From Desulfobacula sp. (GTDB lineage: Bacteria > Desulfobacterota > Desulfobacteria > Desulfobacterales > Desulfobacteraceae): DNA of 44,275 nucleotides. The position numbers and the translations under genes are program-made. Shown one piece after another: positions 24,449-40,973 of this stretch. Below the pieces are notes generated by a model. That model was not told the origin of the DNA and ran no database searches. It saw nothing but the letters and a program-made list of their open reading frames with translations. The stretch covers positions 1 through 44,275 of the forward strand of contig JABGOU010000034.1 in the NCBI GenBank assembly GCA_018645325.1, given 5' to 3'. Each line of letters begins with the position of its first letter. The stretch's first letter is position 1.

Positions 24449-24502
24449 TTTTATTCCAGGACAAAAGCTTAACTGGGACAGACCCCAATAATAGGGAATT
24501 AT

Positions 24503-25080
24503 ATGCTTAATAGCGATACAAAGGTAGCTGTAATAGGTCTGGGATATGTTGGGCTGCCCCTGGCAGTTCATTTTGCAAAAAAACATCATACAATCGGATT
24601 TGATTTAAAAGAAAAAATTATTTCCAACTGCATGGCAATGAATGATCCGACAGGTGAAGTCTCCTATGATGATTTTAGAGATGCAGTCCGTTTTTTCCCC
24701 ACAAAAGATGCCTCAATGATTTCAAAGGCTGATTTTATTATTGTTGCAGTTCCAACGCCCATAGATGATGCAAAAAAGTCTGATCTGAGAGCTGTTGAAA
24801 GTGCCTGTGAAACCATTGGACAAAACATGAAAAAAAATACCATTGTTATTTTTGAATCAAGTGTATACCCGGAAGTTACACAAGAAGTCTGTGTGCCGAT
24901 TTTAGAAAAAGCCTCGGGTTTAAAATGGAAAGAGGACTTTCATGTGGGATATTCGCCGGAACGTATAAATCCAGGTGATAAAGAACACACCCTGAGTAAA
25001 ATTATAAAACCAGTTTCAGGCGATGATAAAGAAACCCTTGAAAAAGTTGCCAGTCTTTATGAATCAATATTGGATAAACA
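24503..25080 (+). pseudogene. Nucleotide-sugar dehydrogenase, 3'-truncated
   Basis: The frame starts MLNSDTKVAVIGLGYVGLPL (Rossmann GxGxxG) and continues through FIIVAVPTPIDDAKKSDLR, VIFESSVYPEVTQEVCVPIL and FHVGYSPERINPGDKEHTL, all typical of the UDP-GlcNAc/UDP-ManNAc dehydrogenase family. Similarity ends near residue 190 (YESILDKQ). The frame then runs into repeat-edge sequence and stops at 25117, just past the R1 left edge at 25100. About 240 residues with the catalytic cysteine domain are missing. The gene was cut by the repeat/cassette array. A complete homologue lies at 41017. Confidence 0.88.
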
Positions 25081-25099
25081 AAAAATTGGACAAAAATTT

Positions 25100-25203
25100 T
25101 TAAAACCCGCTTTTTGACCCCAAAAAGCGGCAGCTAAGAGGAAAAAACACCCCAAATTGTAACAATTTTTCTTTAATAACAAACACTTATCAGGGTCAGA
25201 CCC
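25100..25203 (+). repeat. R1 repeat, form A
   Basis: Left edge TTAAAACCCGC; CCGCTTTTT-GACCCC-AAAAAGCGG forms a perfect 9-bp hairpin; ends CAGGGTCAGACCC. It abuts the truncated dehydrogenase. Confidence 0.92.
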
Positions 25204-25209
25204 TGCATA

Positions 25210-25246
25210 TTGACAATGTGTTTTTGAGTGTGTATAATAAAACACA
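25210..25246 (+). promoter_or_regulatory. Promoter and operator of the MazEF-like pair
   Basis: TTGACA (25210-25215), 17-bp spacer, TATAAT (25233-25238), seven bases after the R1 end. TGTGTTTT (25217-25224) and AAAACACA (25239-25246) form an inverted repeat spanning the promoter. Confidence 0.8.
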
Positions 25247-25271
25247 TCAATTAATACAAGGGGGTTAGACA

Positions 25272-25520
25272 ATGAGTACTGAAATGATAAGATTGAACAT
25301 TACACTGCCTTCTTCCATTAATGAGGAACTCAATCAATTTTCCGCACCCAGAAAAAGAAGCCAGTTTATTGCAGAAGCTATTAAATTAAGAATCATGCAA
25401 TTAAAAGAAAAGAAAATGGAAGCGCTTCTTAAAGAGGGGTATGAGGCAACTTCCAAAGAAGGCCTTCAAATAACAAAAGAGTTTGAATCCATTGATATTG
25501 AGAACTGGGATGGATATTAA
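25272..25520 (+). CDS. Ribbon-helix-helix antitoxin of the MazF-like toxin
   Basis: An 82-residue protein with an RHH-type N-terminus (MIRLNITLPSSINEELNQFS, RKRSQFIAEAIKLRIMQLKE) and an acidic C-terminal tail that would occupy the MazF interface. AAGGGGGTTAG precedes the ATG. It overlaps the toxin start by 11 bp. Confidence 0.85.
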   Translation: MSTEMIRLNITLPSSINEELNQFSAPRKRSQFIAEAIKLRIMQLKEKKMEALLKEGYEATSKEGLQITKEFESIDIENWDGY

Positions 25521-25857
25521 ACGCGGAGAAATTTTCCTGGCAGCGCTTGATCCTGTAGTAGGCCATGAAATTGCAAAAACAAGGCCTGTTGTTGTTGTCT
25601 CCAATGATATCGGCAATAAATATTCTGGAACTATTACCATAATTCCCCTTACTTCAAAAAATTTGATTAAAATTTATCCCTTTGAGGTTTATCTGCCTAA
25701 AAAAATTACGGGCCTGGAAAAGGATTCAAAAGCAAAGACTGACCAGATTCGCACCTTGGATAAAGCAAGATTGATAAAATCCATCGGCTGTTTGAACCAT
25801 GAGCTGATAAATAATATGAATAATGCGATTAAAATTCATTTAAATTTGAATTCCTGA
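25510..25857 (+). CDS. mazF: MazF/PemK-type mRNA interferase toxin
   Basis: A 115-residue endoribonuclease toxin. MDIKRGEIFLAALDPVVGHE (conserved R-G-x-[IV]), then KTRPVVVVSNDIGN (the KxRPxxVVS motif), TITIIPLTSKN and KTDQIRTLDKARL (D-Q-[IV]-R-[TA]) are all diagnostic. ATG 25510 lies inside the antitoxin gene, coupling translation. MazF enzymes cut mRNA at short motifs; the specificity here is unknown. Confidence 0.92.
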   Translation: MDIKRGEIFLAALDPVVGHEIAKTRPVVVVSNDIGNKYSGTITIIPLTSKNLIKIYPFEVYLPKKITGLEKDSKAKTDQIRTLDKARLIKSIGCLNHELINNMNNAIKIHLNLNS

Positions 25858-25919: not shown

Positions 25920-25940
25920 GGATCATTGTTCCACAGTCAC

Positions 25941-26045
25941 CTTAAACTCAACTTTTTGACCCCGAAAAGCGGCGGCTAAGAGCAAAAAACACCCCAAATT
26001 TTAACAATTTTTCTTTAATAACAAACATTTAACAGGGTCAGACCC
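25941..26045 (+). repeat. R1 repeat, form A
   Basis: CTTAAACTCAACTTTTTGAC, CGAAAAGCGGCGGCTAAGAG, ending AACAGGGTCAGACCC. Confidence 0.92.
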
Positions 26046-26153
26046 CACTTTAACACTATACTGATAGCGTTTTTTATGGTATAGATATCAAAGAGAATGA
26101 CAAAAAATAGCACATAATTAATGATGATAATGACGAAATTTTGGAGATAAACC

Positions 26154-27461
26154 CTGAAACGAAAAATTTATAATAAATTATTGCTATGGAAAAAAAATCA
26201 AACCCGTAAGCCATTACTGCTTCAGGGTGCGCGTCAAGTCGGCAAGACCTATCTTGTGGAGGTATTTGGAAATAAAGAATATGCTAATTTCTTCAAATTC
26301 AATTTTGAACAGGATTCAGGTTTAGGGGAGTTATTTAAAAAGAAGTTAAACCCTGAAAATATTATTGAAAATTTAAGCCTGTATTCAGGGAAAAAAATAT
26401 TAAGTCAGGACACCTTGATTTTTTTTGATGAAATCCAGGCAGTTCCGGAAGTTTTAACAAGCTTAAAGTATTTCCACGAACAGGCGCCTGAGTATCATAT
26501 CATAGCAGCCGGTTCATTATTAGGGGTCAGCGTTGCTAAAGATAACAGCTTTCCTGTTGGCAAAGTGAACTTTATGATGCTCTATCCCATGTCTTTTAAT
26601 GAATATTTGATCGCTTTTGGTGAAGAACTTCTGGCGGATAAATTACAATCAAAAAAAGATAATGAACCTTTGCTTGACATCATACATGAAAATTTATTGT
26701 CACATCTTAAAATATATCTCTATCTTGGTGGAATGCCCGAAGTCCTTAAAGAATACAGAAGAAGCCGTGACATTGTTTTGGCGCGGAAAATTCAAAATGA
26801 AATATTAGAGGCCTATTCCAGGGATTTTTCAAAGTATTCAGACAGGTCACAAGCAATCAAAACATCTGAATTCTGGCATTCCATACCCCGTCAGCTGGCA
26901 AAGGAAAATAAGAAATTCAAGTACAGCCTGGCGCGTAAAAATGCCAGAGCATCCGCATTTGAGCAAACGATCGTCTGGCTCAAAAAGGCCGGTTTGATTA
27001 ATACCGTTTATCATATCGGTACACCTAAATTACCGCTGTCCGGTTATGCGGATTATACAAAATTTAAAGTATACCTTCTTGATTCAGGATTATTGGGCGC
27101 TATGCTCAATATCACATCTGACATCATTGTTAAATCCAGCAAACTTTTTTCAGAATATAATGGTGCATTTATAGAAAATTATGTGGCTTCCGAGCTTGTA
27201 GCCTGCGGTGTCAGAGATCTTCATTATTGGACCTCAAAAAGCGACGCAGAGGTTGATTTTATCCTGCAGCACCATAATGCTATTTTCCCTCTGGAAGTTA
27301 AAAGCGGCTTAAATAGAAATATTAAAAGCTTAAGAAGCTACGCCGGCAAATACCATCCCAAAAGAATATATCGCACCTCGCCGAGAAATTTTACCCGGGA
27401 TGATGATTTTGTCAATATCCCGCTTTATGCCTGTTGTTTAATGGCGGGGTCAGAAAAATAA
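26154..27461 (+). CDS. AAA ATPase with nuclease-like C-terminus (AAA_14/DUF4143), CTG or TTG start
   Basis: An ATPase of ~435 residues. Walker A GARQVGKTY, Walker B LIFFDEIQ, sensor IAAGSLLGV, DUF4143 half, and a C-terminal PD-(D/E)XK-like signature DAEVDFILQHH...FPLEVKSGLNR. The usual N-terminal segment (KRKIYNKLLLWKKNQTRKPL) is encoded, but in this frame there is no ATG before it. CTG 26154, seven bases after GGAG and after an in-frame TAA, is the best start; TTG 26181 is an alternative with no good binding site. Single-gene cassette between two R1 copies. Confidence 0.85.
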   Translation: MKRKIYNKLLLWKKNQTRKPLLLQGARQVGKTYLVEVFGNKEYANFFKFNFEQDSGLGELFKKKLNPENIIENLSLYSGKKILSQDTLIFFDEIQAVPEVLTSLKYFHEQAPEYHIIAAGSLLGVSVAKDNSFPVGKVNFMMLYPMSFNEYLIAFGEELLADKLQSKKDNEPLLDIIHENLLSHLKIYLYLGGMPEVLKEYRRSRDIVLARKIQNEILEAYSRDFSKYSDRSQAIKTSEFWHSIPRQLAKENKKFKYSLARKNARASAFEQTIVWLKKAGLINTVYHIGTPKLPLSGYADYTKFKVYLLDSGLLGAMLNITSDIIVKSSKLFSEYNGAFIENYVASELVACGVRDLHYWTSKSDAEVDFILQHHNAIFPLEVKSGLNRNIKSLRSYAGKYHPKRIYRTSPRNFTRDDDFVNIPLYACCLMAGSEK

Positions 27462-27516
27462 AATATCCATCCTTTGCCCCGAATAAGGACAATATGGAAT
27501 TGATTCCAGAGCTATC

Positions 27517-27620
27517 TTAAAACCTTGTTTTTGACCCCGAAAAGCGGCGGCTAAGAGGAAAAAACACCCCAAAATGTAACGATTATCCTTCGAAAACAAA
27601 CTCTTATCAGGGTCAGACCC
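27517..27620 (+). repeat. R1 repeat, form A
   Basis: TTAAAACCTTGTTTTTGACC, CGAAAAGCGGCGGCTAAGAG, CGATTATCCTTCGAAAACAA sub-variant, ending CAGGGTCAGACCC. It shares the variant middle with the copy at 35924. Confidence 0.92.
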
Positions 27621-27634
27621 CGTCATTAAGATAC

Positions 27635-27669
27635 TTGACAAAAATAAGATTTTGCACTACATTTGTCAA
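27635..27669 (+). promoter_or_regulatory. Promoter and operator of the RHH/RelE pair
   Basis: TTGACA (27635-27640), 17-bp spacer, TACATT (27658-27663), 14 bp after R1. TTGACAAA (27635-27642) and TTTGTCAA (27662-27669) are a perfect inverted repeat bracketing the promoter. Confidence 0.75.
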
Positions 27670-27701
27670 CACAGCACAAGAAAACTTTAAAAGGGAAGCA
27701 A

Positions 27702-27932
27702 ATGAAACCTGCAATTAATATAAGACTCGAAAAAGAGATGCTGAATTCTCTGGACAACTATGCCAGGGAACTGGAAAAGACAAGGACAAATCTAATTGAA
27801 AAAGCAATAGACGCTTATTTTGATGAACTGGATGAAATGGTGGCTGACAAAAGAATTGATGCCTTGAAAAAAGGTGAGACCGAAGTTATCCCCCTTGAAG
27901 TAGTCTTTGCCAGAGCAGGCATTGATGTATAA
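27702..27932 (+). CDS. CopG/RHH-type antitoxin
   Basis: A 76-residue antitoxin: MKPAINIRLEKEMLNSLDNY, ARELEKTRTNLIEKAIDAYF is a ribbon-helix-helix DNA-binding domain, followed by an acidic toxin-binding tail. The start at 27702 follows AAAGGGAAGCA. It overlaps the toxin start by 8 bp. Confidence 0.88.
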   Translation: MKPAINIRLEKEMLNSLDNYARELEKTRTNLIEKAIDAYFDELDEMVADKRIDALKKGETEVIPLEVVFARAGIDV

Positions 27933-28179
27933 AATTGGATTTGAACCTGAAGCAGAAAAAGAATTTTTGGCTTTGCCGGATAAAGATAGAGCCTTGGTTG
28001 CAAAAAAAATAATCACGCTGCAAAAAGGCCAGTTTCAAAAGGATAAACCGCTAAAAGGCAGGCACAAAGGTAAATTTCGCAAAAGAGCAGGAAACTTTCG
28101 GATTATCTATCTGAAAGAAGGAAATTTGTTATTAATAACCATTATCCGGATTGCCCACAGAAAAAAAGTATATTCTTAG
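27925..28179 (+). CDS. RelE/ParE-family toxin
   Basis: An 84-residue toxin with MYKIGFEPEAEKEFLALPDK (N-terminal strand and helix of the RelE fold), PLKGRHKGKFRKRAGNFRII (core G.W/FR.R.G.YR.IY) and the closing strand ITIIRIAHRKKVYS (I..IGHR..VY). These are close to RelE mRNA interferase signatures. ATG 27925 lies within the antitoxin gene. Confidence 0.9.
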   Translation: MYKIGFEPEAEKEFLALPDKDRALVAKKIITLQKGQFQKDKPLKGRHKGKFRKRAGNFRIIYLKEGNLLLITIIRIAHRKKVYS

Positions 28180-28406: not shown

Positions 28407-28474
28407 TTGATTCTGGATCGATCGGTATCGAACAGAACCTGGATAAATCTGGAAAGCGATATAAGATAAAAATG

Positions 28475-28497
28475 CTTACAATGCTGTTTTTGACCCC
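28475..28497 (+). repeat. R1 left tip only
   Basis: CTTACAATGCTGTTTTTGAC then CCC; the rest of R1 is missing and the next cassette begins at once. Confidence 0.75.
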
Positions 28498-28514
28498 ACC
28501 TTAAACAGTATCGT

Positions 28515-28543
28515 TTGACTTTATGGTGTAGGATTATTACAAT
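28515..28543 (+). promoter_or_regulatory. Promoter of the Phd-like/RelE-like pair
   Basis: TTGACT (28515-28520), 17-bp spacer, TACAAT (28538-28543). Confidence 0.6.
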
Positions 28544-28607
28544 ACGCACATGATAAAAATTAAGAAGTTTTACATCTACATGAGGACAAAGGGTGTGAGT
28601 GATTAAA

Positions 28608-28811
28608 ATGGAACTGATCAATAAACAATATATTGTTGATGAGAATAATCGGAAAGTAGCAGTTCAGATTCCCATTGATGTTTTTGAAAAAATGGAACTA
28701 TTACTTGAAGACCACGCACTGTTTCACTTAATGAAAGAGAACACAGACTCTGATTTGTTAGAATTAACCGATGCCCAGGCATATTATAGGCAACTGGTTA
28801 AAGAAGCGTGA
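28608..28811 (+). CDS. Small antitoxin of a RelE-type pair
   Basis: A 67-residue acidic protein (MELINKQYIVDENNRKVAVQ, IPIDVFEKMELLLEDHALFH...DAQAYYRQLVKEA). The pattern 'VDE.....AV.IPI..FEKM..LLED' is typical of antitoxins coupled to RelE-like toxins. The ATG at 28608 is internal to an earlier TTG/ATT frame; the binding site is weak (GTGAG). Its stop overlaps the toxin GTG. Confidence 0.8.
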   Translation: MELINKQYIVDENNRKVAVQIPIDVFEKMELLLEDHALFHLMKENTDSDLLELTDAQAYYRQLVKEA

Positions 28812-29074
28812 AAGTAAAATACAGAAAGAAATTTTTAAAAGAACTTTCTCAAATTCCTTCTCCACACAGAGTCAAAATGGAACGTTTCGTATTTAAGGAA
28901 CTTCCCCAGGCCGGGTCAATACATCAATTGGGTGCCATAGAACAGATGAAAGGTTACCCCTTGTGTTTTAAGGTTCGATTCGGATCTTACAGGATAGGTC
29001 TAAAAATTGAAGGTGATGCTATTATTCTGGAAAAAGCGTTGCACCGTAAAGATATTTATCGCCATTTCCCATAA
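28808..29074 (+). CDS. RelE/ParE-family toxin (GTG start)
   Basis: An 88-residue toxin: VKVKYRKKFLKELSQIPSPH, the core GYPLCFKVRFGSYRIGLKIE (K.RVG.YRIG) and ILEKALHRKDIYRHFP (HR.DIY..FP), all RelE-like. GTG 28808 overlaps the antitoxin TGA by 4 bp. Confidence 0.9.
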   Translation: MKVKYRKKFLKELSQIPSPHRVKMERFVFKELPQAGSIHQLGAIEQMKGYPLCFKVRFGSYRIGLKIEGDAIILEKALHRKDIYRHFP

Positions 29075-29097
29075 AAAAACCAGAGTCCAACAAAATT

Positions 29098-29202
29098 CTT
29101 ACAATGCTGTTTTTGACCCCAAAAAGCGGCGGCTAAGAGCAAAAAACACCCCAAATTTTAACAATTTTTCTTTAATAACAAACACTTATCAGGGTCAGAC
29201 CC
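29098..29202 (+). repeat. R1 repeat, form A (consensus copy)
   Basis: CTTACAATGCTGTTTTTGAC, CAAAAAGCGGCGGCTAAGAG, TAACAATTTTTCTTTAATAA, ACACTTATCAGGGTCAGACC then C. Confidence 0.93.
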
Positions 29203-29283
29203 TCAAAATAATACCTTGGAAAAAAACACACAGCCTGACAAAACAACCTTGTAAAAAATCAATAAAATAATTATAACAATTAA

Positions 29284-30648
29284 ATGATGCATAGATCAGC
29301 AATAGATTACCTTGTGGAATGGAAAACAAGGCCAAGAAGAAAACCGCTTGTAATAAGAGGTGCAAGACAGGTAGGAAAGTCATATCTTGTATCTATGTTT
29401 GCTGAACAAAATTTTTCAGATTATATTGAAATTAATTTTGAAAGTGACCATGAGATAAAATCTTTGTTTTCCGGATCACCGGAGCAAATTATTAAACTAT
29501 TAGAACTTAGATTTAATAAAATAATTGATATTGAAAATACCCTTCTTTTTTTAGACGAAATACAGGCTGCACCGGAAGTATTTGCAAAACTGAGATATTT
29601 TTATGAAGATTTGCCTGACATGCATATAATTGCAGCCGGTTCCCTGCTCGAATTTATTCTGGAAGATCATACGTTCTCTATGCCGGTTGGGAGAATTGAG
29701 TATCTGCATCTTGGCCCCATGACATTTGAAGAATTTTTAACAGCAAGCGGCAAAACAATGCTGGTTGAGTATATAGAAAATTATTCTATATCAGAAGACT
29801 TTCCTGATCCTGTTCATTCTCAGCTTGTGGCTCTTTTTAAAACATATTTAATCATTGGAGGTATGCCGGAGGCAGTTCAGGCATATTTAGAAAAAGGATC
29901 TTTTCACGAATCCGAAATCGTAAAAGCATCCATTCTGGAAACATATGCAGACGATTTTAATAAATATGCATCAAGAGTTAATCATTTGCGTATCCTTAAT
30001 CTGTTTAAGAAAGTTCCTCTTATTGTAGGGGAAAAGTTTAAATATGTGAATATTGACAGGCATGATAGAGCTCAAAGCATCGCCAAATCCCTGCATCTGC
30101 TTGAACTGGCTAAAATTACATATTGTGTTAAGCATAGTGCATGTAATGGTGTGCCTTTAGGCTCCCAGGTAAATGAAAAAAAATTTAAACTCATTTTTCT
30201 TGATGTTGGACTAATGGCGACTGCCTGTGGAATGAGTATGATTGATATTGAACATGTTGATGATTTAATGATGGCTAATTCCGGGAGTCTGTGTGAGCAG
30301 TTTGTAGGTCAGCACCTCCTTTATTTGGATGAGTTCTATAAAAAGCCTGAACTATTCTACTGGGTTAGAGAAGCAAAAAATTCCTCAGCCGAAGTTGACT
30401 ATGTTATTTCTTTAGGAGTTCAAATCATACCGGTTGAAGTTAAAGCAGGTAAGACAGGACGTTTAAAATCACTGCATCAATTCATAAAAGATAAAAAAGT
30501 TAGGCTGGCTGTCCGGATTAATCTTGCAAAACCAAATATTTTAAAGGATTCACACAAATTACCCGGAGGTGAATCCGTTGAATACAAGCTTTTTTCAATT
30601 CCTTTCTACCTGGCTGGACAAATTAGAAGACTTTTAAGAGAAATTTAA
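29284..30648 (+). CDS. AAA ATPase with nuclease-like C-terminus (AAA_14/DUF4143)
   Basis: A 454-residue ATPase. Walker A GARQVGKSY (~25-33), Walker B LLFLDEIQ, sensor IAAGSLLEF, conserved FSMPVGRIEYLHLGPM and IGGMPEAVQ, then EVDYVISLGVQIIPVEVKAG, a PD-(D/E)XK-like signature. It is the closest relative in the window of the ATPase at 13541 although the two lie in different repeat blocks. The binding site before ATG 29284/29287 is weak. The downstream gene fragment starts 6 bp after its stop. Confidence 0.9.
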   Translation: MMHRSAIDYLVEWKTRPRRKPLVIRGARQVGKSYLVSMFAEQNFSDYIEINFESDHEIKSLFSGSPEQIIKLLELRFNKIIDIENTLLFLDEIQAAPEVFAKLRYFYEDLPDMHIIAAGSLLEFILEDHTFSMPVGRIEYLHLGPMTFEEFLTASGKTMLVEYIENYSISEDFPDPVHSQLVALFKTYLIIGGMPEAVQAYLEKGSFHESEIVKASILETYADDFNKYASRVNHLRILNLFKKVPLIVGEKFKYVNIDRHDRAQSIAKSLHLLELAKITYCVKHSACNGVPLGSQVNEKKFKLIFLDVGLMATACGMSMIDIEHVDDLMMANSGSLCEQFVGQHLLYLDEFYKKPELFYWVREAKNSSAEVDYVISLGVQIIPVEVKAGKTGRLKSLHQFIKDKKVRLAVRINLAKPNILKDSHKLPGGESVEYKLFSIPFYLAGQIRRLLREI

Positions 30649-30835: not shown

Positions 30836-30873
30836 ATTCTGGGCCGATTCCAAAACAAAATCTCATTTTTTCC

Positions 30874-30978
30874 CTTAAAACCCGCTTTTTGACCCCAAAA
30901 ACCGGCGGCTAAGAGCAAAAAACACCCCAAATTTTAATAATTTTACTTTAATAACAAACACTTATCAGGGTCAGACCC
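30874..30978 (+). repeat. R1 repeat, form A
   Basis: CTTAAAACCCGCTTTTTGAC, CAAAAACCGGCGGCTAAGAG, ending ATCAGGGTCAGACCC. Confidence 0.92.
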
Positions 30979-31022
30979 TGAAAAACGAAAAACAGAAATT
31001 TTGTTGCAATTTTGTGTAATAT

Positions 31023-31295
31023 ATGTATAATTCAGACATAACATTTGAATGGGATAATGAGAAAAGCCGCAGTAACCAAACCAAACACGGCATTGATTTT
31101 GATACAGCCAGGGCCTTGTGGGACGATTGCAACCGTGTCGAAATCCAGAGTTCCTATCCACTTTAAAACAGGAGTATTTTGATAGCTAAGCTTGATAAAA
31201 AACTATGGACGGCAATTTTTACGTGGCGCGGGAGTGCCCTGCGAATTATATCAGTTAGACGCGCCAGAAAGCAGGAGGCAAATCTTTATGGTTAA
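31023..31295 (+). pseudogene. brnT: BrnT-type toxin with nonsense codon
   Basis: The frame encodes ITFEWDNEKSRSNQTKHGID, FDTARALWDDCNRVEIQSSY PL, then TAA at 31164-31166, and continues in the same frame NRSILIAKLDKKLWTAIFTW, RGSALRIISVRRARKQEANL YG. The whole (~90 codons) is a normal BrnT ribonuclease toxin (FEWD..K...N..KHGI.F..A; RIISAR.A...E). One substitution (for example GAA to TAA) separates it from an intact gene. The antitoxin gene overlaps its end. Loss of the toxin while the antitoxin survives is the expected harmless direction of decay. Confidence 0.85.
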
Positions 31296-31554: not shown

Positions 31555-31605
31555 AGGCTTATTCCTCAACGATAATAATGCAAGCCTGATTCCTAAAACA
31601 AAATT

Positions 31606-33582: not shown

Positions 33583-33611
33583 TTGTCCTTATTAAATTTA
33601 TAACTTATAAT
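33583..33611 (+). promoter_or_regulatory. Promoter of the MITE-interrupted VapBC-like pair
   Basis: TTGTCC (33583-33588), 17-bp spacer, TATAAT (33606-33611), 29 bp after R1. Confidence 0.6.
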
Positions 33612-33647
33612 AAAGATCAATTAAGTATTATTTTAAGGAGTCGCATC

Positions 33648-33860: not shown

Positions 33861-34428
33861 TATACAGCCTGAAGCAACATACTTCATAGATAGTGCCTGA
33901 ACGGAAACCCGTGTTTGGGCGAAAAATTGCCCATATACAAGGCGCAAGAAAGTTTGAAACCGGAGTGTACTCCTGTACATGAGGATTTCAAACTTTTGCA
34001 GCAACGCAGTAGATGGGTGAGTTTTCGTTCAAACACTAGATACAAATATATGGCTTTATGCATTTATCCAGAGTCAAAATGCAAAAAAAAATGAAATAGC
34101 AAGAGTTATTATCAAAGAATGTGAAATTGTTATCAGCACCCAGATAATCAATGAGATGTGTGTGAATCTGATAAAAAAAGTGGGTTTTTCAGAAATTGAA
34201 ATCCAAAATTTGGTAGCATCTCTCTACCGGAAATATACAGTTTTTGAGTTATCACAAGACATACTTGTAAAAGCTTCAAAAATACGCACTAATAACAGCT
34301 TCTCTTTTTGGGATAGCATCGTGGCAGCCAGCGCTTTGGATTGTGATGCGGAGTATTTAATATCTGAAGACATGCAGGATGGGTTTCTTCTTGAAAACAG
34401 TCTTAAAATAATAAATCCATTTGCATAA
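33847..34428 (+). pseudogene. vapC: VapC-like PIN toxin disrupted by a MITE
   Basis: ATG 33847 reads MSAFNIQPEATYFID; after the inserted 33893-34036 element and one duplicated TAGATA the frame resumes TNIWLYAFIQSQNAKKNEIA. Removing the insert restores YFIDTNIWLYAF, the PIN N-terminus with the first catalytic Asp. The rest is intact: IINEMCVNLI (Glu), SFWDSIVAASALD (Asp), LISEDMQDG (Asp), ending at 34428. The insertion adds 150 bp, a multiple of three, but brings a TGA at 33898-33900, so no full toxin is made. Confidence 0.9.
33893..34036. mobile_element. 144-bp MITE with 6-bp target duplication
   Basis: TAGATA is present on both sides (33887-33892 and 34037-34042), and excision of one copy plus 144 bp restores the vapC reading frame exactly. 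The ends are imperfect inverted repeats: GTGCCTGAACGGAAACCC at the left, and GTGTTTGAACGAAAACTC as the reverse complement of the right end (14 of 18 match). An internal inverted repeat (AGTTTGAAA...TTTCAAACT around GTGTACTCCTGTACAT) gives a strong hairpin. It encodes nothing and needs a transposase in trans. Confidence 0.92.
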
Positions 34429-34487
34429 AATAAATACTGTACCCATCAACAATTACAATAAGAAAGCCGCTGCCCCCAGGCAAAAAT

Positions 34488-34593
34488 CTTTAAAACCTAC
34501 TTTTTGACCCCAAAAAGCGGCGGCTAAGAGCAAAAAACACCCAAAATTTTAACAAGTTTTCTTTAATAACAAACACTTAGTAGGGTCAGACCC
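34488..34593 (+). repeat. R1 repeat, form A
   Basis: CTTTAAAACCTACTTTTTGA, CAAAAAGCGGCGGCTAAGAG, ending AGTAGGGTCAGACCC. A short second tip (AGTAGTCCAGACCC) follows at ~34605-34620. Confidence 0.9.
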
Positions 34594-34833
34594 TGAAAAA
34601 CAGTTAGTAGTCCAGACCCGGTGTTTGACTATTATGAGCAAATAAATTAAAATAGTTAATTAAAGATTAACTGGAACTGTAGGAAATACACAGAAACGAG
34701 TTAAAGCCTATACAGGAAGATGGAATGCATATAATATTTAAAAAAAATATCGATAAAATAAAAACCTTATGTATGAATCATAACATTAAATCCGACTTAT
34801 CAGGTCAGACCCGTTATTAAGGAGGTAACCAAT
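34594..34833. other. Gap with stray repeat tips
   Basis: About 240 bp, AT-rich, no gene. It ends with another R1-like tip, CTTATCAGGTCAGACCCGTT (34796-34815), directly before the AAGGAGG of the next ORF. Confidence 0.5.
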
Positions 34834-35064
34834 ATGGAAGCTGCAACACCAATGTCCCCTGAATCATTAACAACAGTTGAGATTTTGGAAAGTATAAGTG
34901 TAACACATCGAAATCAAGCTTTAGAAATGTTAAGAACTTTTGCATATGAACTTCGCAGTGAACAGAAATGGGAGGAATTGTATTCAAAGCATCCTGGGCC
35001 GATGAAAAAAATGGCAAAACAGGCGCTTAAAGAATACAAAGAAGGAAAGAGCCGGGAATTGTAA
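34834..35064 (+). CDS. Orphan antitoxin-like ORF whose 3' end is repeat sequence
   Basis: A 76-residue helical, acidic/basic protein (MEAATPMSPESLTTVEILES, VTHRNQALEMLRTFAYELRS, KHPGPMKKMAKQALKEYKEG). AAGGAGGTAACCAAT gives a very good binding site. No toxin gene follows: the last codons (GAA TTG TAA) already belong to the middle of an R1 repeat. The gene has thus been joined to a half R1, losing its tail and probably its partner. Family uncertain; RelB/Phd-like antitoxin is a guess from size and context. Confidence 0.55.
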   Translation: MEAATPMSPESLTTVEILESISVTHRNQALEMLRTFAYELRSEQKWEELYSKHPGPMKKMAKQALKEYKEGKSREL

Positions 35065-35105
35065 CAAATTTTCTTTAATAACAAACACTTATTAGGGTCA
35101 GACCC
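35058..35105 (+). repeat. R1 right half, form A
   Basis: AATTGTAACAAATTTTCTTT, AATAACAAACACTTATTAGG, GTCAGACCC; the left half with the hairpin is missing. Confidence 0.88.
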
Positions 35106-35119
35106 CGTTATAAAACATC

Positions 35120-35148: not shown

Positions 35149-35183
35149 GGATAAAAACATAAAGTATCAAGGAGGTGATAATA

Positions 35184-35465
35184 ATGCAAAAGCAATTTTC
35201 CATAGCTGAAGCAAAAAACAGACTTCCCGCCATTATTCATTATGTCGAAAAGGGGCCATATATCGAGTTGACCAGACGAGGAAAACCAGTTGCAGTATTG
35301 CTGTCGATTCAAGAATATGAACGGCTCAGCCGCAAATATTCGGGTTTTTGGAATACCATTTTGGAATTTCGGCGAAAGACTGAGGATGAAGGGGTTGAGA
35401 TTTCTGACAGGGATTTCAACGGGCTTCGAGACCTGTCTTCTGGAAGAGAAGTCCAGTTAAGATGA
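35184..35465 (+). CDS. Phd/YefM-type antitoxin
   Basis: A 93-residue antitoxin with the Phd/YefM DNA-binding fold: QFSIAEAKNRLPAIIHYVEK, GPYIELTRRGKPVAVLLSIQ, EYERLSRKYSGFW. AAGGAGGTGATAATA precedes ATG 35184; the GTG at 35175 lies inside the binding site and is not the start. The C-terminal tail overlaps the vapC start by 4 bp. Confidence 0.9.
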   Translation: MQKQFSIAEAKNRLPAIIHYVEKGPYIELTRRGKPVAVLLSIQEYERLSRKYSGFWNTILEFRRKTEDEGVEISDRDFNGLRDLSSGREVQLR

Positions 35466-35890
35466 TGAAATATCTCATCGATACAAACGTACTTTCAGAG
35501 GCAGTGAAAACAATCCCTGATAAATTGGTCATGAATATGCTTGAAAAATGTCAGCACGAAATAGTCACTGCTGCGCCGGTTTGGCATGAACTCCAATTTG
35601 GTTGTCAGCGCCTTGCCCGATCCCGTAAACGTGAAATTATTGCTTCATTTCTTAACGACGTTGTCAAGCGCACGATGCTTATACTTCCTTATGATGACAG
35701 GGCAGCAGAGTGGCATGCAGGGGAACGTGCCAGATTATCATCAAAAGGCTTAACCCCCTCATTTGTTGATGGACAGATTGCGGCAATATCAGTGGTGAAT
35801 GGTTTGATACTGGTAACACGGAACATTGATGATTTTAAACAGTTTTTAAGGCTGAAGATTGAAAACTGGCACTTCCCGAAATCTGAATGA
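35462..35890 (+). CDS. vapC: VapC-family PIN toxin
   Basis: A 142-residue PIN ribonuclease: MMKYLIDTNVLSEAV (Asp 7), TAAPVWHELQFGCQRL (Glu), LTPSFVDGQIAAISVVNG (Asp) and LVTRNIDDFKQF (Asp). The start overlaps the Phd-type antitoxin gene. All catalytic acids are present, so it should be functional. Confidence 0.92.
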   Translation: MMKYLIDTNVLSEAVKTIPDKLVMNMLEKCQHEIVTAAPVWHELQFGCQRLARSRKREIIASFLNDVVKRTMLILPYDDRAAEWHAGERARLSSKGLTPSFVDGQIAAISVVNGLILVTRNIDDFKQFLRLKIENWHFPKSE

Positions 35891-35923
35891 TAAAGATTTT
35901 AAGCCCATTGAGAAAATCTGCGG

Positions 35924-36028
35924 CTTAAAATGCTGTTTTTGACCCCGAAAAGCGGCGGCTAAGAGGAAAAAACACCCTAAAATGTAACGATTATCCTTCG
36001 AAAACAAACACTTATCAGGGTCAGACCC
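35924..36028 (+). repeat. R1 repeat, form A
   Basis: CTTAAAATGCTGTTTTTGAC, CGAAAAGCGGCGGCTAAGAG, variant middle CGATTATCCTTCGAAAACAA shared with 27517-27620, ending ATCAGGGTCAGACCC. Confidence 0.92.
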
Positions 36029-36113
36029 TGCCTGATAATAGAAAAAGGATTTGCAGAAATTTAAGTTTATGGTTACACTGTTACAGATATAATCAAACAG
36101 GGAGTAATAACGT

Positions 36114-36371
36114 ATGAAAGCAGTCGAATATACAACTAATATATCAAAAAATGGAGTGCTTTTACTCCCAAAAAAAATTTTACAAGAACTGAATGTTATG
36201 AAGAATTCAAAGATTAAGGTTGTGTTATTATATGAGGATGAACCTGGTAAAAAAGATTTGACACGATTTTGCGGGAAGTGGCAGGATAAAAGAGATGCGG
36301 ATACAATCATAAAGGAAATTTATGCCGATCGGGATAAAAATATTCGATCAGAATCAGTAACTAAACCATGA
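36114..36371 (+). CDS. VapB-like antitoxin (AbrB-type N-terminus)
   Basis: An 85-residue antitoxin (MKAVEYTTNISKNGVLLLPK, KILQELNVMKNSKIKVVLLY, EDEPGKKDLTRFCGKWQDKR). CAGGGAGTAATAACGT precedes the ATG and TATAAT (36088-36093) is a fair -10. It overlaps the toxin start by 4 bp. Ninety bases of it (36175-36264) are found identically, inverted, at 8078-8167 within a chimeric relic. Confidence 0.87.
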   Translation: MKAVEYTTNISKNGVLLLPKKILQELNVMKNSKIKVVLLYEDEPGKKDLTRFCGKWQDKRDADTIIKEIYADRDKNIRSESVTKP

Positions 36372-36766
36372 GTTATCTGCTTGATACAGACATCATTATA
36401 TATTGGCTGAACGATGCTATTCCGAATATACGGAATAAAATAAACAGCATAGCTAATGATGAAATTTATATATCTTCTATTACAGTCGCCGAACTCTATT
36501 TTGGCGCTTATTATTCGTCACAAGTGATTAAAAACATAGAACTTCTAAATGAATTCACTTCTGAGCTTAACATACTTTATTTAGATACTGAATGTGGTAA
36601 AATTTTTGGTAAGATTAAGGCTGATTTAAAAAAAGAAGGAAAAATTATCAACGACTCAGATTTATTTATTGCATCGATTGCAATAAATAATAAAATGCGG
36701 CTGGTGACCAACAATGACAAACACTTCAAGAGAATAGAAGATTTGCAGGTAGAAAACTGGATATGA
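36368..36766 (+). CDS. vapC: VapC-family PIN toxin
   Basis: A 132-residue PIN toxin: MSYLLDTDIIIYWLN (Asp 6), ITVAELYFGAYYS (Glu), IINDSDLFIASIAINN (Asp) and LVTNNDKHFKRI (Asp). ATGA overlap with the antitoxin. The C-terminus RIEDLQVENWI is the normal ending of this VapC type. Confidence 0.93.
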   Translation: MSYLLDTDIIIYWLNDAIPNIRNKINSIANDEIYISSITVAELYFGAYYSSQVIKNIELLNEFTSELNILYLDTECGKIFGKIKADLKKEGKIINDSDLFIASIAINNKMRLVTNNDKHFKRIEDLQVENWI

Positions 36767-36811
36767 TCGGCAGGATTTAAACAATCTGCCCTGATCTGAG
36801 AAAATCTGTGG

Positions 36812-36916
36812 CTTAAAATGCTGTTTTTGACCCCAAAAAGCGGCGGCTAAGAGCAAAAAACACCCCAAATTTTAACAATTTTTCTTTAATAACAAACACT
36901 TATCTGGGTCAGACCC
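36812..36916 (+). repeat. R1 repeat, form A
   Basis: CTTAAAATGCTGTTTTTGAC, CAAAAAGCGGCGGCTAAGAG, ending ATCTGGGTCAGACCC. Confidence 0.92.
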
Positions 36917-36943
36917 TGCTAATCCGCTAACAGGGATATCCAC

Positions 36944-37009: not shown

Positions 37010-37246
37010 ATGAAAAGTGTGCAAACAAAAATTTTCAAAAGCAACCGAAGTCAAGCTGTTCGACTACCTAAAGATGTTGCTTTTCCAGAATCAGTAAAGG
37101 ATGTTGATATTATTGCCATTGGAAACAAGCGCATTATTGCACCAGTTGATCAATCCTGGGATGAATGGTTTGATGCGCCAGGAGTTTCCAGCGATTTTAT
37201 GACAACGCGCAGGCAGCCGGAGGATCAGCTTCGGGAAACATTATAA
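37010..37246 (+). CDS. vapB: VapB antitoxin (SpoVT/AbrB type)
   Basis: A 78-residue VapB: MKSVQTKIFKSNRSQAVRLP, KDVAFPESVKDVDIIAIGNK is the classic 'K.F.NGRSQAVRLPK' AbrB-type domain, followed by DQSWDEWFDAPGVSSDFM, a toxin-binding tail. TCTGGAGATATC precedes the ATG. One-base overlap with vapC. Confidence 0.93.
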   Translation: MKSVQTKIFKSNRSQAVRLPKDVAFPESVKDVDIIAIGNKRIIAPVDQSWDEWFDAPGVSSDFMTTRRQPEDQLRETL

Positions 37247-37650
37247 TGCTGAAGTATCTGCTGGATACAAATATTGTAATCTACACTATGAAAAATCGCC
37301 CACAGCAAGTGAAAAGGCGTTTTAAACAGCACAGAGGTCAGATGTGCATTTCCAGCGTGACTTTGGGAGAACTGATTTTTGGTGCGGAACATTCAAAGCA
37401 GGTGGAACAGAATTTATCAGATATTGAAGCAATGGTTGCTCGACTTGAAGTATTGCCCTTTGACAACAAACCAGCATATCATTTCGGACAGATTCGGGCT
37501 TCATTATATAGTATAGGCAAACCCATTGGACCGTATGATATGATGATTGCCGGGCATGCAAGAGCATCCGGGTTGACGCTGGTAACAAATAATATCAAGG
37601 AGTTTGAACGTGTGCCGGGATTGATATTGGAGAATTGGGTCAGACCCTGA
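37246..37650 (+). CDS. vapC: VapC PIN toxin ending inside the repeat tip
   Basis: A 134-residue PIN toxin: MLKYLLDTNIVIYTM (Asp 7), SVTLGELIFGAEHS (Glu), GPYDMMIAGHARASG (Asp) and TLVTNNIKEFERV. The last codons TGG GTC AGA CCC TGA are the R1 tip GGGTCAGACCC plus TGA, so the natural ending (usually ...LENW plus one to few residues) is taken from the repeat. No R1 body follows. Confidence 0.92.
   Translation: MLKYLLDTNIVIYTMKNRPQQVKRRFKQHRGQMCISSVTLGELIFGAEHSKQVEQNLSDIEAMVARLEVLPFDNKPAYHFGQIRASLYSIGKPIGPYDMMIAGHARASGLTLVTNNIKEFERVPGLILENWVRP
37637..37647 (+). repeat. R1 right tip inside vapC 3' end
   Basis: GGGTCAGACCC, read in frame as part of VapC codons. The rest of R1 is absent. Confidence 0.85.
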
Positions 37651-38079: not shown

Positions 38080-38114
38080 CTTACAATGCTGTTTTTGACC
38101 CCAAATGCAGACCC
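38080..38114 (+). repeat. R1 with internal deletion (left tip joined to right tip)
   Basis: CTTACAATGCTGTTTTTGAC, CCC, AAATG, then CAGACCC. The ~70-bp middle is missing. Confidence 0.75.
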
Positions 38115-38188: not shown

Positions 38189-38521
38189 ATGGAAACGACA
38201 GAGCGAATTATTTACGAATATGTCACTCATGACGGCAGAAACCATTTTAGAGAATGGTTTGATTCCTTAAGCGATGTCCAGGCCCAGATTAAAACTGATG
38301 TAAGAATCGCTAGAATCAGACTCGGTAACTTTGGGGATGCCAAAAGTGTTGGAAAGGGCGTATATGAATTAAGGATTGATTTCGGCCCAGGATACAGAAT
38401 CTATTATGGGTTAGAAGGAATCAACATAGTTTTTTTGCTCTGTGCCGGTGATAAAAGCAGCCAGAAAAAAGATATTAAAAAAGCACATACCTTTTGGCAG
38501 AATCATACAGGAGGAGAATGA
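38189..38521 (+). CDS. HigB/RelE-like toxin (phage Gp49-like addiction killer)
   Basis: A 110-residue toxin (IIYEYVTHDGRNHFREWFDS, IARIRLGNFGDAKSVGKGVY, ELRIDFGPGYRIYYGLEGIN, FLLCAGDKSSQKKDIKKAHT). The pattern 'F..W...L.D......I..R..R...GN.GD.K.VG.GV.ELRI.FGPGYR.YY......LL.GGDK.SQ..DI..A' is characteristic of the family. It is first in the operon; the antitoxin follows with a one-base overlap. Confidence 0.93.
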   Translation: METTERIIYEYVTHDGRNHFREWFDSLSDVQAQIKTDVRIARIRLGNFGDAKSVGKGVYELRIDFGPGYRIYYGLEGINIVFLLCAGDKSSQKKDIKKAHTFWQNHTGGE

Positions 38522-38817
38522 TGGCTATTGCAAATTATCAGGAAGGACTTCTGGAGAGATTGAAGGACTCAGGATATGCCACAGAATATTTAAATGAAGC
38601 CCTTAAGGAGGAGTCCCAGGAAGTATTTATGCTTGCTCTGAGGGACGTGGCAAAAGCAAGGGGGATCTCGCTTGTTGCCAAAGAAACAGATCTTAATAGG
38701 GAAACGCTGTATAGAATGTTATCGGAAAAAGGCAACCCAAATCTTTCAAGCCTGAACAAACTGTTAAATTCCCTTGGACTCATTTTGACAATTCGATCAA
38801 AAGAAAATGCTGCCTGA
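38521..38817 (+). CDS. HTH antitoxin of the HigB-like toxin
   Basis: A 98-residue antitoxin: YATEYLNEALKEESQEVFML, ALRDVAKARGISLVAKETDL, NRETLYRMLSEKGNPNLSSL, LNSLGLILTI. This is the 'addiction module antidote' type with a helix-turn-helix (LA.ETGL.RE.LY..LS..GNP...TL). AGGAGGAGA precedes ATG 38521. Confidence 0.93.
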   Translation: MAIANYQEGLLERLKDSGYATEYLNEALKEESQEVFMLALRDVAKARGISLVAKETDLNRETLYRMLSEKGNPNLSSLNKLLNSLGLILTIRSKENAA

Positions 38818-38916
38818 TAATGGCAAAAATAACCTATCGGACACCCTGAAGGTCACATGTGGGATCTTTGAACAGCAAAAACCGGTGAGGAATTAATACC
38901 AGGGCTTTATAAAATT

Positions 38917-39021
38917 CTTAAAATGCTGTTTTTGACCCCAAAAAGCGGCGGCTAAGAGCAAAAAACACCCCAGATTGTAACCATTATCCATTGAAAACAA
39001 CCACTTATCAGGGTCAGACCC
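38917..39021 (+). repeat. R1 repeat, form A
   Basis: CTTAAAATGCTGTTTTTGAC, CAAAAAGCGGCGGCTAAGAG, variant middle CATTATCCATTGAAAACAAC, ending ATCAGGGTCAGACCC. Confidence 0.92.
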
Positions 39022-39035
39022 CCAAATTTTCCAAA

Positions 39036-39064: not shown

Positions 39065-39099
39065 AGTCGTATGAATTATTTAGAGGCTTGGAGGATAAG

Positions 39100-39369
39100 A
39101 TGAAAATTCGGATAACAGAAGAAATATGGAAAGAGGGTAATATGTATGTTTCGTATTGTCCTGAATTAGATATTGCCTCTTGCGGTGAGGATGTTTCTCA
39201 GGCAAAGAAAAATCTCATGGAGGCTATACTCATCAACATCGAAGAGACAAAAAAGGTGGGAACATTTGAGCAGTTTATTGAAGATTGCGGGTTAGAGGAA
39301 ATAAATGCTGACATATTGAGTGTGCGCAAAGAGTTGGTTGGATTTACTCCTATTGAAGTGCCTGTATAG
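39100..39369 (+). CDS. hicB: HicB-like antitoxin
   Basis: An 89-residue protein: MKIRITEEIWKEGNMYVSYC, PELDIASCGEDVSQAKKNLM, EAILINIEETKKVGTFEQFI. 'YVSYCPELDI.S.G....EA..NL.EA' is the HicB partial RNase H-like fold. GGAGGATAAG precedes ATG 39100. No C-terminal DNA-binding domain is obvious. It overlaps the HicA GTG by one base. Confidence 0.88.
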   Translation: MKIRITEEIWKEGNMYVSYCPELDIASCGEDVSQAKKNLMEAILINIEETKKVGTFEQFIEDCGLEEINADILSVRKELVGFTPIEVPV

Positions 39370-39596
39370 TGAAAATTAAACCGACTCATTATCAAGTGCA
39401 GATCAAAATTTTTGAAATGGCTGGATGTGTGTATGTTCGAACAAAAGGAGATCATCTTATTTACCGATACCCTGGGGCTGTCAGACCTGTGATAATACCC
39501 AAATATAAAGAAGTACCAATATTCGTTATCAAAAATAATATGCGTGTGATTGAAATGAGCAGAGAGAAATATCTTAAATTCCTGGAAAGGGCTTGA
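39369..39596 (+). CDS. hicA: HicA-like mRNA interferase toxin (GTG start)
   Basis: A 75-residue toxin with the double-stranded-RNA-binding-like fold: KIFEMAGCVYVRTKGDHLIY (the G[SD]H motif carries the catalytic His), RYPGAVRPVIIPKYKEVPIF, then a helix (MSREKYLKFLERA). The order antitoxin-toxin (hicB then hicA) is the less common but known arrangement. Confidence 0.88.
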   Translation: MKIKPTHYQVQIKIFEMAGCVYVRTKGDHLIYRYPGAVRPVIIPKYKEVPIFVIKNNMRVIEMSREKYLKFLERA

Positions 39597-39712
39597 ATTT
39601 TCTTAAGCTTTTAAGAGAATTCCAGATCTGACGATCATCAACTGGACAAAATGAAGAAAACCCTCAAAGCAAACCATCTGAGACCATCAGAAAAAATCTG
39701 CGGAACAAAATT

Positions 39713-39817
39713 CTTAAAATGCTGTTTTTGACCCCAAAAAGCGGCGGCTAAGAGCAAAAAACACCCCAAATTTTAACAAATTTTCTTTAATAACAAACAT
39801 TTATTAGGGTCTGACCC
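39713..39817 (+). repeat. R1 repeat, form A
   Basis: CTTAAAATGCTGTTTTTGAC, CAAAAAGCGGCGGCTAAGAG, ending ATTAGGGTCTGACCC. It is the last R1 before the wecB operon. Confidence 0.92.
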
Positions 39818-39863
39818 TGATAAATATCTGACCCTGATAAATATAAATACCCTGATAAATAAT
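39812..39863 (+). repeat. Short tandem repeat upstream of wecB
   Basis: CCCTGATAAAT is repeated three times (about 39815, 39832 and 39851) with spacers TCTGA and ATAAATA, as if the R1 tip had been partly copied. A degenerate R2 (ATAATGATAAGGAAAGCCT) follows. Confidence 0.6.
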
Positions 39864-39887
39864 GATAAGGAAAGCCTCTAAACTTTT

Positions 39888-40973
39888 ATGAAAATTTTTC
39901 TAATAGCAGGTGCAAGACCCAATTTCATGAAAATCGCCCCCATTGCCAGGGCATTTGATAATCAAAGCCGGATCAACTATAAAGTTGTCCACACAGGCCA
40001 GCACTACGATAAAAACATGAGCGATATATTTTTTGAAGAACTTGGCATACGACAACCTGATTATCACCTGGGTGCAGGTGGCGGAACTCATGCCCAACAG
40101 ACCGCAAAAATCATGACCGGGTTTGAAGAGATCTGTGAAAAAGACAGACCAGATCTTGTCATAGTAGTGGGAGATGTAAACTCAACCCTTGCCTGCTCAA
40201 TCGTAGCTAAAAAAATGCACATAAAAGTGGCCCATGTAGAAGCAGGCCTCCGAAGCTTTGACCTTTCAATGCCCGAAGAGATAAACCGCATGGTAACAGA
40301 TTCCATCTCTGACATGTTCTTTGTAACAGAAGAGCAGGGCATGACAAATCTTCTAAAAGAAGGAAAATCAAAGGAAAGCTTACATTTTGTAGGCCATGTC
40401 ATGATTGATAATCTTTTTTATCAATTGGAAAAGCTTAAAAAAATGGACACCACCTGTTTTCCGACAAGTCAATTTAAACAATCACACACTCAATACGGCG
40501 TGGTTACACTTCATCGTCCTTCAAACGTAGACGATAAAGAAAACCTTGAAACCATTTTTGAAACCTTGACCACTATTTCTGAAACCTTACCCCTGATTTT
40601 CCCCATTCATCCCAGAACCCGAAAAAACATGGAAGCCTTTGGCATAAAGCCGGGAGCCAATATAAAACTGACTGAACCCCTTTCTTACATGGAGTTTTTA
40701 AACCTCTGGAAAGATGCACGAGTAGCGTTAACAGATTCCGGTGGCCTCCAGGAAGAAACAACCGCCTTGAGTATCCCGTGCCTTACCATCAGAAACAATA
40801 CAGAACGCCCGATTACGGTTACACAAGGCACAAATGAACTCATGGGGACATCAAAAGAAAAAATCCTTGAGTCATTCAAAAAAATAATGGGTAATGCTTG
40901 GAAAACAGGGCAGCGACCAAAGTTTTGGGATGGAAATGCCTCAGAACGTATTATTAAAGTTATTGGAAATTAA
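39888..40973 (+). CDS. wecB: UDP-N-acetylglucosamine 2-epimerase (non-hydrolysing)
   Basis: A 361-residue cytoplasmic GT-B-fold enzyme that interconverts UDP-GlcNAc and UDP-ManNAc. Diagnostic segments: IAGARPNFMKIAPIARAF, VVHTGQHYDKNMSDIFFEEL, VVVGDVNSTLACSIVAKK, KVAHVEAGLRSFD, MPEEINRMVTDSISD, TLHRPSNVDDKENL, IHPRTRKN, and LTDSGGLQEETTAL with the substrate-binding SGG.QEE. Full length. It is followed 43 bp later by a UDP-sugar dehydrogenase; together they could make UDP-ManNAcA or a related uronic acid for a surface polysaccharide. Confidence 0.95.
   Translation: MKIFLIAGARPNFMKIAPIARAFDNQSRINYKVVHTGQHYDKNMSDIFFEELGIRQPDYHLGAGGGTHAQQTAKIMTGFEEICEKDRPDLVIVVGDVNSTLACSIVAKKMHIKVAHVEAGLRSFDLSMPEEINRMVTDSISDMFFVTEEQGMTNLLKEGKSKESLHFVGHVMIDNLFYQLEKLKKMDTTCFPTSQFKQSHTQYGVVTLHRPSNVDDKENLETIFETLTTISETLPLIFPIHPRTRKNMEAFGIKPGANIKLTEPLSYMEFLNLWKDARVALTDSGGLQEETTALSIPCLTIRNNTERPITVTQGTNELMGTSKEKILESFKKIMGNAWKTGQRPKFWDGNASERIIKVIGN

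Follow-up and report, generated by a model that had tools for sequence, protein, structure and literature searches.

Toxin–antitoxin units of a Desulfobacula array are separated by terminal repeats of Y1 transposase elements and occur in altered order in other species

Cassette arrays are regarded as a hallmark of integrons: integrons and clusters of attC sites lacking an integron integrase (CALIN) hold one-way arrays of small, shuffled units, among them toxin–antitoxin (TA) modules, each with a conserved end site. The IS91 and ISCR elements encode Y2 HUH enzymes that act by rolling circle, and one element end is enough for them to capture neighbouring genes. We analysed a window of 44,275 bp from Desulfobacula sp. 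(contig JABGOU010000034.1), corresponding to bases 1–44,275 of 44,668 on contig 86 of a 4.39-Mb genome (157 contigs, 90% complete), in which a repeat, R1, recurs between TA operons, ATPase genes and other units. R1 is the terminal repeat of a Y1 (HUH) transposase element of the RAYT/TIRYT kind. In the available text of their description, TIRYT genes are flanked by terminal inverted repeats (TIRs) with a GGGGWSAS motif, some TIRs overlapping the gene and some forming repeat families (PMC3733652); the accessible part of another account places TIRYT/TIRtron in subclass 2.1 (PMC6006769). Below, G-numbers denote genomes, G000 being that of the window, and L-numbers denote fetched loci.

R1 is about 108 bp long, and 12 near-full copies, all on the plus strand, lie between 25,100 and 39,820 in the window, with truncated copies near 24449, 28474, 31705, 35050, 37637 (tip only) and 38080. 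An R1 profile gave 173 matches in fetched loci, compared with 1 in reversed sequences (E ≤ 0.01, antisense and partial matches included). An initial search detected relatives in 18 of 38 genomes, G000 included (E ≤ 0.01). A survey of 291 genomes of the order detected R1-like repeats in at least 183; it scored 12 candidates per genome, so that its counts are lower bounds. Single copies also occur. Further left in the window, relatives at 8.3, 13.0, 18.0 and 19.1 kb neighbour additional ATPase genes together with a PIN toxin, TumAE and an antitoxin of MazE type. Elsewhere in G000, contigs 24 and 111 carry groups of them, contig 76 a single one and contig 80 fragments. Within the putative hairpin stems of R1, CTTA/TAAG is invariant and TTTT/AAAA nearly so. 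An Rfam scan of the window returned no family at gathering score. A guide–target reading of GGGGTC-A-GACCCC was tried and set aside, as it suits R1 of this genus and fails on the GGCCCGACCCC variants.

The relationship to a transposase is seen in G007, where a Y1_Tnp gene within an array terminates in R1, which therefore encodes its final residues. Used as a query against 194 genomes of the order, this tail peptide matched 14, its own genome counted. That search yielded seven ORFs (open reading frames) of this kind, 261–296 aa long, with an inverted R1 relative upstream in L102, L104, L107, L115, L116 and L118 and, weakly, in L112. With a profile of five such proteins, the transposase was detected in 66 of the 291 genomes surveyed in the order (E ≤ 1e-40), and 8 of 26 genomes within the genus gave matches (E ≤ 1e-20), two of them weak. 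For closer analysis, 36 transposase loci were chosen by score: the 29 loci newly obtained from the order search, 5 of 9 newly obtained from the genus search (L154–L157, partial or weak, being excluded), and L115 and L118; additional matches were without a locus. An R1 relative in the same orientation lies at the 3' end of 34 of the 36 genes, beginning inside the profile match in 29 and behind it in 5; an inverted relative lies upstream of 30, and both ends are present in 28. R1 hits were counted to a limit of E = 1, and some score only 10–20 bits; several misses fall at contig ends, and five of the genes built the search profile. Across the 36 loci, R1 hits at E ≤ 1 number 131, compared with 2 in the reversed sequences; at E ≤ 1e-3 the numbers are 89 and 0.

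The R1-type transposase matches PF01797 (1.2e-9) and scores 69–70 bits against the NCBIfam model REP_Tyr_transpos (NF047646), below its cut-off of 80. The Y1/HUH domain PF01797 is above cut-off in L060 and L118, both R1-type, and in L084; no C-terminal helix-turn-helix (HTH)/Bac_DnaA_C domain was found in L060 or L118. The idea of treating every Y1_Tnp gene close to an array as cognate was rejected: three such genes (G014 contig 187, G001 contig 34, G011 contig 138) are only 24–29% like that of G007, and none was seen to end in R1. R1 lies within 2 kb at 4 of 14 fetched Y1 loci (23 Y1 matches, seven genomes). Interpretation of R1 as coding sequence was likewise rejected: although R1 encodes the C-terminal end of the G007 and Desulfocicer transposases, that frame is open in only 5 of 87 copies.

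Numerous unit ends carry another motif, R3 (AATAACCACAATAAG..AAGCCTGACCCC), which is the terminal repeat of a second Y1 transposase element. At L084 in G005, an inverted R3 pair surrounds a Y1 transposase with a Bac_DnaA_C domain, the downstream copy covering the last codons, while at L064 in G014, R3 was detected upstream of the transposase only. The R3 core occurs nine times in the window and is present in 10 of 15 array loci, the window counted, and absent from all 12 loci without arrays; in 44 of 47 cases it points the same way as R1. From the outer tip inward, R3 fits GGGGWSAS (GGGGTCAG). R1 reads GGGGTCTG inward, one letter off the motif, and fits when read outward (GGGGTCAG). Two more Y1 transposases, at 5672 of L073 and 3640–4440 of L079 (G001, G014), have other GGGG-type ends (GGGGTCAGAGG; GGGGACACC).

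Comparison between species bears out the cassette-like logic that a sequence-only reading of the window had proposed: the same units recur across species at 75–97% identity in altered order, and the break points are rich in GACCCC/TGACCC. Window segments 28497–29202 and 30996–31589 are found in G014 with their order swapped (93.6% and 96.6%), and segments 26068–27620 and 38262–39022 on different G014 contigs. G249 and the window share six high-scoring segment pairs (HSPs) of 219–753 bp (86–94%) in a different order. The left flank, which carries genes for LuxR-type and response regulators, PilZ and DNA methylase, is collinear between the window and G014 but for an IS110 element on the window side; different units come after it. 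Identical units follow different tips in different species. The view that R1 alone is common to the units had to be given up: R1 is a transposase end, R3 is also used, and R1 is missing at some unit ends, among them those of unit 30996–31589 in G014.

Ten unit starts were compared by eye. At five of them (28.5, 31.0, 33.6, 35.1 and 28.0 kb), both species have a GACCC tip no more than about 20 bp away; at the remaining five it is found in one species or farther away. Across 46 cross-genome HSPs, a tip lies within 20 bp in both genomes at 8 of 83 ends (shifted positions: mean 0.2, maximum 2) and in at least one genome at 29 of 83 (shifted positions: mean 8.6, maximum 17). In a count of all 6-mers up to 22 bp from 153 break-point positions, with no motif preset, GACCCC was the top 6-mer (38; 7.9 expected), followed by TGACCC (38; 8.2 expected). 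The same two remain on top at break points away from R1, with TGACCC at 26 of 124 (6.6 expected) and GACCCC at 25 of 124 (6.4 expected); the p-values are nominal because the positions are not independent. Junctions fall past the GACCCC tip, in mid-R1 or at the R1 end. Six of 19 R1 hits cut at the 3' side end within 6 nt past the internal GACCCC (four in G000, two of these in the window and two on contig 80, and the others in G014 and G019), most being weak matches because they are short. A seventh R1 cut after the internal GACCCC lies in G249, ahead of a Phd/PIN unit.

The features of the array and of its left neighbourhood are listed below by window coordinates.

24503–25117: UDP-glucose dehydrogenase fragment, N-terminal domain only, ending inside R1 copy 1; full paralogue at 41017–42345
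25100–25205, plus: R1 copy 1
25272–25857, plus: TA unit, small unknown protein and PemK/MazF toxin; G019 relative, 75%
25940–26047, plus: R1 copy 2
26181–27461, plus: AAA_14/DUF4143 ATPase unit, common to G014 and G019
27514–27623, plus: R1 copy 3
27663–28179, plus: TA unit, CopG-type ribbon-helix-helix protein and ParE; shared by G249 at 94%
28474–28496, plus: R1 truncated directly past internal GACCCC
28599–29074, plus: TA unit, RelB-like antitoxin and ParE-like toxin (28808, below Pfam cut-off); shared by G014, 93.6%
29095–29203, plus: R1 copy 4, the reference copy
29284–30648, plus: AAA_14/DUF4143 ATPase unit
30872–30980, plus: R1 copy 5
31192–31554, plus: BrnA-family antitoxin unit; 30996–31589 common to G014, 96.6%
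31603–31725, plus: R1 copy 6, end doubled
31749–33446, plus: ATP sulfurylase/APS kinase, lone metabolic gene; relative about 3.5 kb off the G007 array
33446–33555, plus: R1 copy 7
33576–34484, plus: small unknown ORFs, one unit, partly common to G005 and G249
34490–34595, plus: R1 copy 8
35050–35107, plus: R1 without its 5' half
35175–35890, plus: TA unit, Phd/YefM and PIN; shared by G249, 91%
35922–36030, plus: R1 copy 9
36114–36766, plus: TA unit, weak RelN-like antitoxin (below cut-off) and PIN
36809–36919, plus: R1 copy 10
37010–37650, plus: TA unit, MazE-type antitoxin and PIN; GGGTCAGACCC tip at 37637
38080–38101, plus: R1 truncated past internal GACCCC; three more A may be chance or R1
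38189–38817, plus: TA unit, Gp49 toxin and HI1420-type antitoxin; shared by G014, 90%
38914–39023, plus: R1 copy 11
39088–39596, plus: TA unit, unknown partner and HicA; shared by G249, 92%
39710–39820, plus: R1 copy 12
8302–8408, plus: R1 relative, left array
13008–13116, plus: R1 relative, left array
18037–18139, plus: R1 relative, left array
19098–19216, plus: R1 relative, left array
12311–12320, plus: R3 core AAGCCTGACC; others at 8943, 13299, 13373, 14984, 15016, 16966, 19238 and 25908

The sequence-only reading is confirmed in that R1 parts TA operons, AAA/DUF4143 ATPases and a sulfurylase gene over 24.5–39.9 kb; its near-full copies number 12, besides truncated ones. The R1 relatives of the left array and R3 were not part of that reading. 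A single unit per R1 interval holds when truncated copies are counted, those at 28474, 35050 and 38080 splitting three two-unit intervals. The count of at least seven TA types was too high, as Pfam and NCBIfam give five toxin families plus BrnA. The toxins are PemK/MazF, two of ParE type, three PIN proteins with different partners, Gp49 and HicA; with the same models no toxin was detected beside the BrnA antitoxin, and the small ORFs at 33648, 34156, 34834 and 39088 have no Pfam match. The claim that all units are oriented as R1 largely stands for the 24.5–39.9 kb array, where 21 of 25 non-overlapping ORFs are on the R1 strand, and is not general, with 15 of 15 opposite on G000 contig 24. The four minus-strand ORFs of the window array are short, and ten minus-strand ORFs scanned, three of the four non-overlapping ones among them, gave no Pfam match. 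ORF orientation is mostly that of R1 in G014 (L061–L063), G005, G011, G018 and G249, and is mixed on G014 contig 187 and at the G007 locus. Adjacent full R1 copies up to 5 kb apart are on the same strand in 54 of 55 pairs (82 copies, fetched genus loci). The R1 relatives of G032, from another family, are mostly divergent doublets; one of its loci (L195, 3806001–3825000, complete genome) contains twenty R1-like copies, mostly in this form, around a transposase gene.

TA and ATPase families are commoner in ORFs between R1 copies than in control ORFs. The 137 ORFs between R1 copies at 19 loci, window excluded, include, among the best 25 of 92 families, DUF4143, AAA_14, nucleotidyltransferases, PIN and HTH_3 (7 each), HepT (5), ParE (4), BrnT and HicA (3 each), and HipA_C, TacA1, TumE and HicB (2 each). 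The 135 control ORFs away from R1 include, among the best 25 of 213 families, PIN (2) and Phd/YefM, HTH_3 and AAA_21 (3 each), and none of the remaining TA families of the array. Controls were taken from the fetched loci rather than from whole genomes, and both sets contain spurious small ORFs; median ORF length is 114 aa for the arrays versus 208 aa for the controls (137 each, two long control ORFs then being dropped). At the Desulfocicer vacuolatum DSM 3385 locus, L118, whose R1-type transposase gene spans 9992–10882, R1 copies lie among HipA-type, BrnA-type and Gp49-type TA genes and polysaccharide genes. The arrays in the window and in Desulfocicer adjoin polysaccharide genes.

An IS110-family transposase at 19630–20940 adjoins the R1 relative at 19098–19216; a bridge RNA is known for IS110-family elements. 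At 9647–10915, an AAA_14/DUF4143 ATPase is broken into two ORFs. From 43211 to the window end at 44275, a 291-bp sequence recurs head to tail, its copies being 96–97% alike and each containing open frames.

We consider the chances to be evenly balanced that the array consists of small cassettes bounded by right-hand terminal repeats of TIRYT/RAYT-kind Y1/HUH elements, with a Y1 transposase moving the units. According to the available text of PMC8266576, E. coli TnpA-REP cuts and rejoins single-stranded REP (repetitive extragenic palindrome) near its structure, and not its complement. By analogy with the biochemistry of the family, the Y1 transposase would act on one strand when present as single-stranded DNA, for example as lagging-strand template. 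Nicks would fall after GACCCC at two successive tips, the unit plus tip would be released as a single-strand circle, and this circle would be joined behind another GACCCC. Because the donor end would equal the target sequence, every insertion would make the next target, and the array would grow in one orientation; TA units may predominate because their loss is punished. More tentatively, the transposases of two TIRYT families might carry out gene capture independent of integrons, moving single-strand cassettes between GACCCC tips and stockpiling TA, ATPase and other genes one-way across an order.

Several observations weigh against movement of the units by a Y1 transposase. Reordering between species is the only sign of movement, no excision or movement having been observed, and 194 R1 copies tested gave no clean empty site; the one candidate (L103 1526–1631 versus L104; seen at two loci), in which an R1 doublet is present in G049 and the flanks are adjacent without a second R1 in G034, leaves 45 and 26 bp of flank unaligned. 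With the motif in both genomes at 8 of 83 HSP ends, many break points have other causes. The remaining 13 of 19 3'-truncated R1 hits end at other places (several are antisense), one G249 copy is cut at a different site, CTCTAA, and the self-complementary tip is not conserved across the wider family, which has GGCCCGACCCC at this place. The R1 hairpin lacks covariation support (0 pairs in RNAalifold, shuffles attaining the observed values), and the mechanism is therefore not rested on it. The R3 core is missing in 5 of 15 array loci (L062, L068, L072, L074 and L075). As for the enzyme, a recombinase constantly beside R1 did not emerge: of the 137 ORFs that lie between R1 copies, three are Y1_Tnp, and the 25 commonest of the 92 families contain no further transposase or integrase. 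R1-like repeats occur in 64 of 66 genomes of the order with the transposase (E ≤ 1e-40), an association that follows in part from the R1 ends of the gene itself, and also in 119 of 225 genomes without it. Among the genus genomes whose arrays were read, G000, G001, G005, G014 and G018 have no R1-type transposase match at E ≤ 1e-20, matches are weak in G011 and G249 (1e-25 and 1e-22), and G007 has a full one. The three Y1_Tnp places of G000 hold an IS200-type gene, a 228-aa RAYT-like protein and a fragment, none R1-type.

The main rival, a serious contender to which we assign a lower probability than to the cassette reading, is that old transposase ends lie scattered in a TA-rich island in which units are now lost, duplicated or acquired through homologous recombination between the repeats (RecA, slippage, uptake of related DNA) while the transposase is idle on them. 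The repeats are long enough for this, duplicated stretches occur in G034 (928 bp, R1 included, 97%) and in G008 (223 bp, 100%), certain shared HSPs continue through R1 to its end, and G000 has no R1-type transposase at E ≤ 1e-20; but recombination accounts poorly for the enrichment of GACCCC at break points even away from R1 (25 of 124), for R1 copies cut just past the internal GACCCC and fused to non-R1 sequence, or for two repeat families that keep one orientation (44 of 47). We disfavour the reading of R1 as a mere intergenic repeat, akin to REP or to a miniature inverted-repeat transposable element (MITE), in a graveyard of TA genes whose units are not cassettes and whose order is altered by ordinary rearrangement. 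Unit edges meet tips above chance, the same units stand behind different tips in different species, and ORFs between R1 copies are richer in TA and ATPase families than controls, and these points make it improbable despite the 183 of 291 genomes with R1-like repeats, single copies included, and the divergent doublets of G032.

An integron array with an unusual attC, served by integrases elsewhere in the genome, would suit the array logic, the single orientation and the integrase above the TIGR02249 cut-off on G000 contig 66. It is effectively refuted because R1 belongs to a Y1 transposase, and we regard it as scarcely credible. The attC core pair RYYYAAC ... GTTRRRY is found in 0 of 82 R1 copies in either direction (shuffles: 2 of 1640), in agreement with the earlier statement that R1 is not attC; no phage-type integrase is present among the window ORFs scanned, and R1 is absent from the five loci fetched of nine places above the TIGR02249 cut-off. 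Integrases above this cut-off number one on G000 contig 66 (L158), three in G005, two in G001, two in G007 and one in G008.

The TIR families of TIRYTs are already known, and it is their service as cassette boundaries that appears new: a literature search covering few subscription papers returned no account of TIRYT ends bounding shuffled TA cassettes. The array thus represents a possible second bacterial route to gene-cassette collection, besides integrons. If HUH transposase ends do the job of the integron, integrase-free TA and defence-like islands would be explained, and the role of TIR/REP families and domesticated transposases would gain a testable answer in GACCCC cleavage and single-strand cassette circles.

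The array resembles integrons and CALIN in its one-way, shuffled small units, TA modules included, and in its conserved end site, and differs from them in that no attC core and no IntI were found near it and the boundary comes from an HUH transposase element. With IS91 and ISCR it would share an HUH enzyme and one-ended gene pick-up, although those elements use Y2 enzymes and rolling circle, whereas here the enzyme would be Y1 and the units are short. REP/REPIN–RAYT systems, as far as the available portions of PMC3116915 and PMC8266576 describe them, likewise combine a Y1 transposase with dispersed non-autonomous repeats, and the divergent doublets of G032 recall them; R1 differs in its length of about 108 bp and in copies that are single and same-strand in the genus arrays. 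GTAG is found in 0 of 53 aligned R1 copies, and GTGG in the tip of 9 of 53, these being from other families of the order. TIRYT/TIRtron elements (Di Nocera et al. 2013, PMC3733652) share the Y1 gene between long inverted repeats, some of them overlapping it, the genomic repeat families and the GGGG-type tip. The C-terminal HTH/Bac_DnaA_C domain of subclass 2.1 is present in the R3-type L084 and was not found in the R1-type L060 and L118. Gene cassettes are not described in the accessible text of PMC3733652, whereas in the arrays analysed here lone repeats stand, almost all in the same orientation, between TA units.

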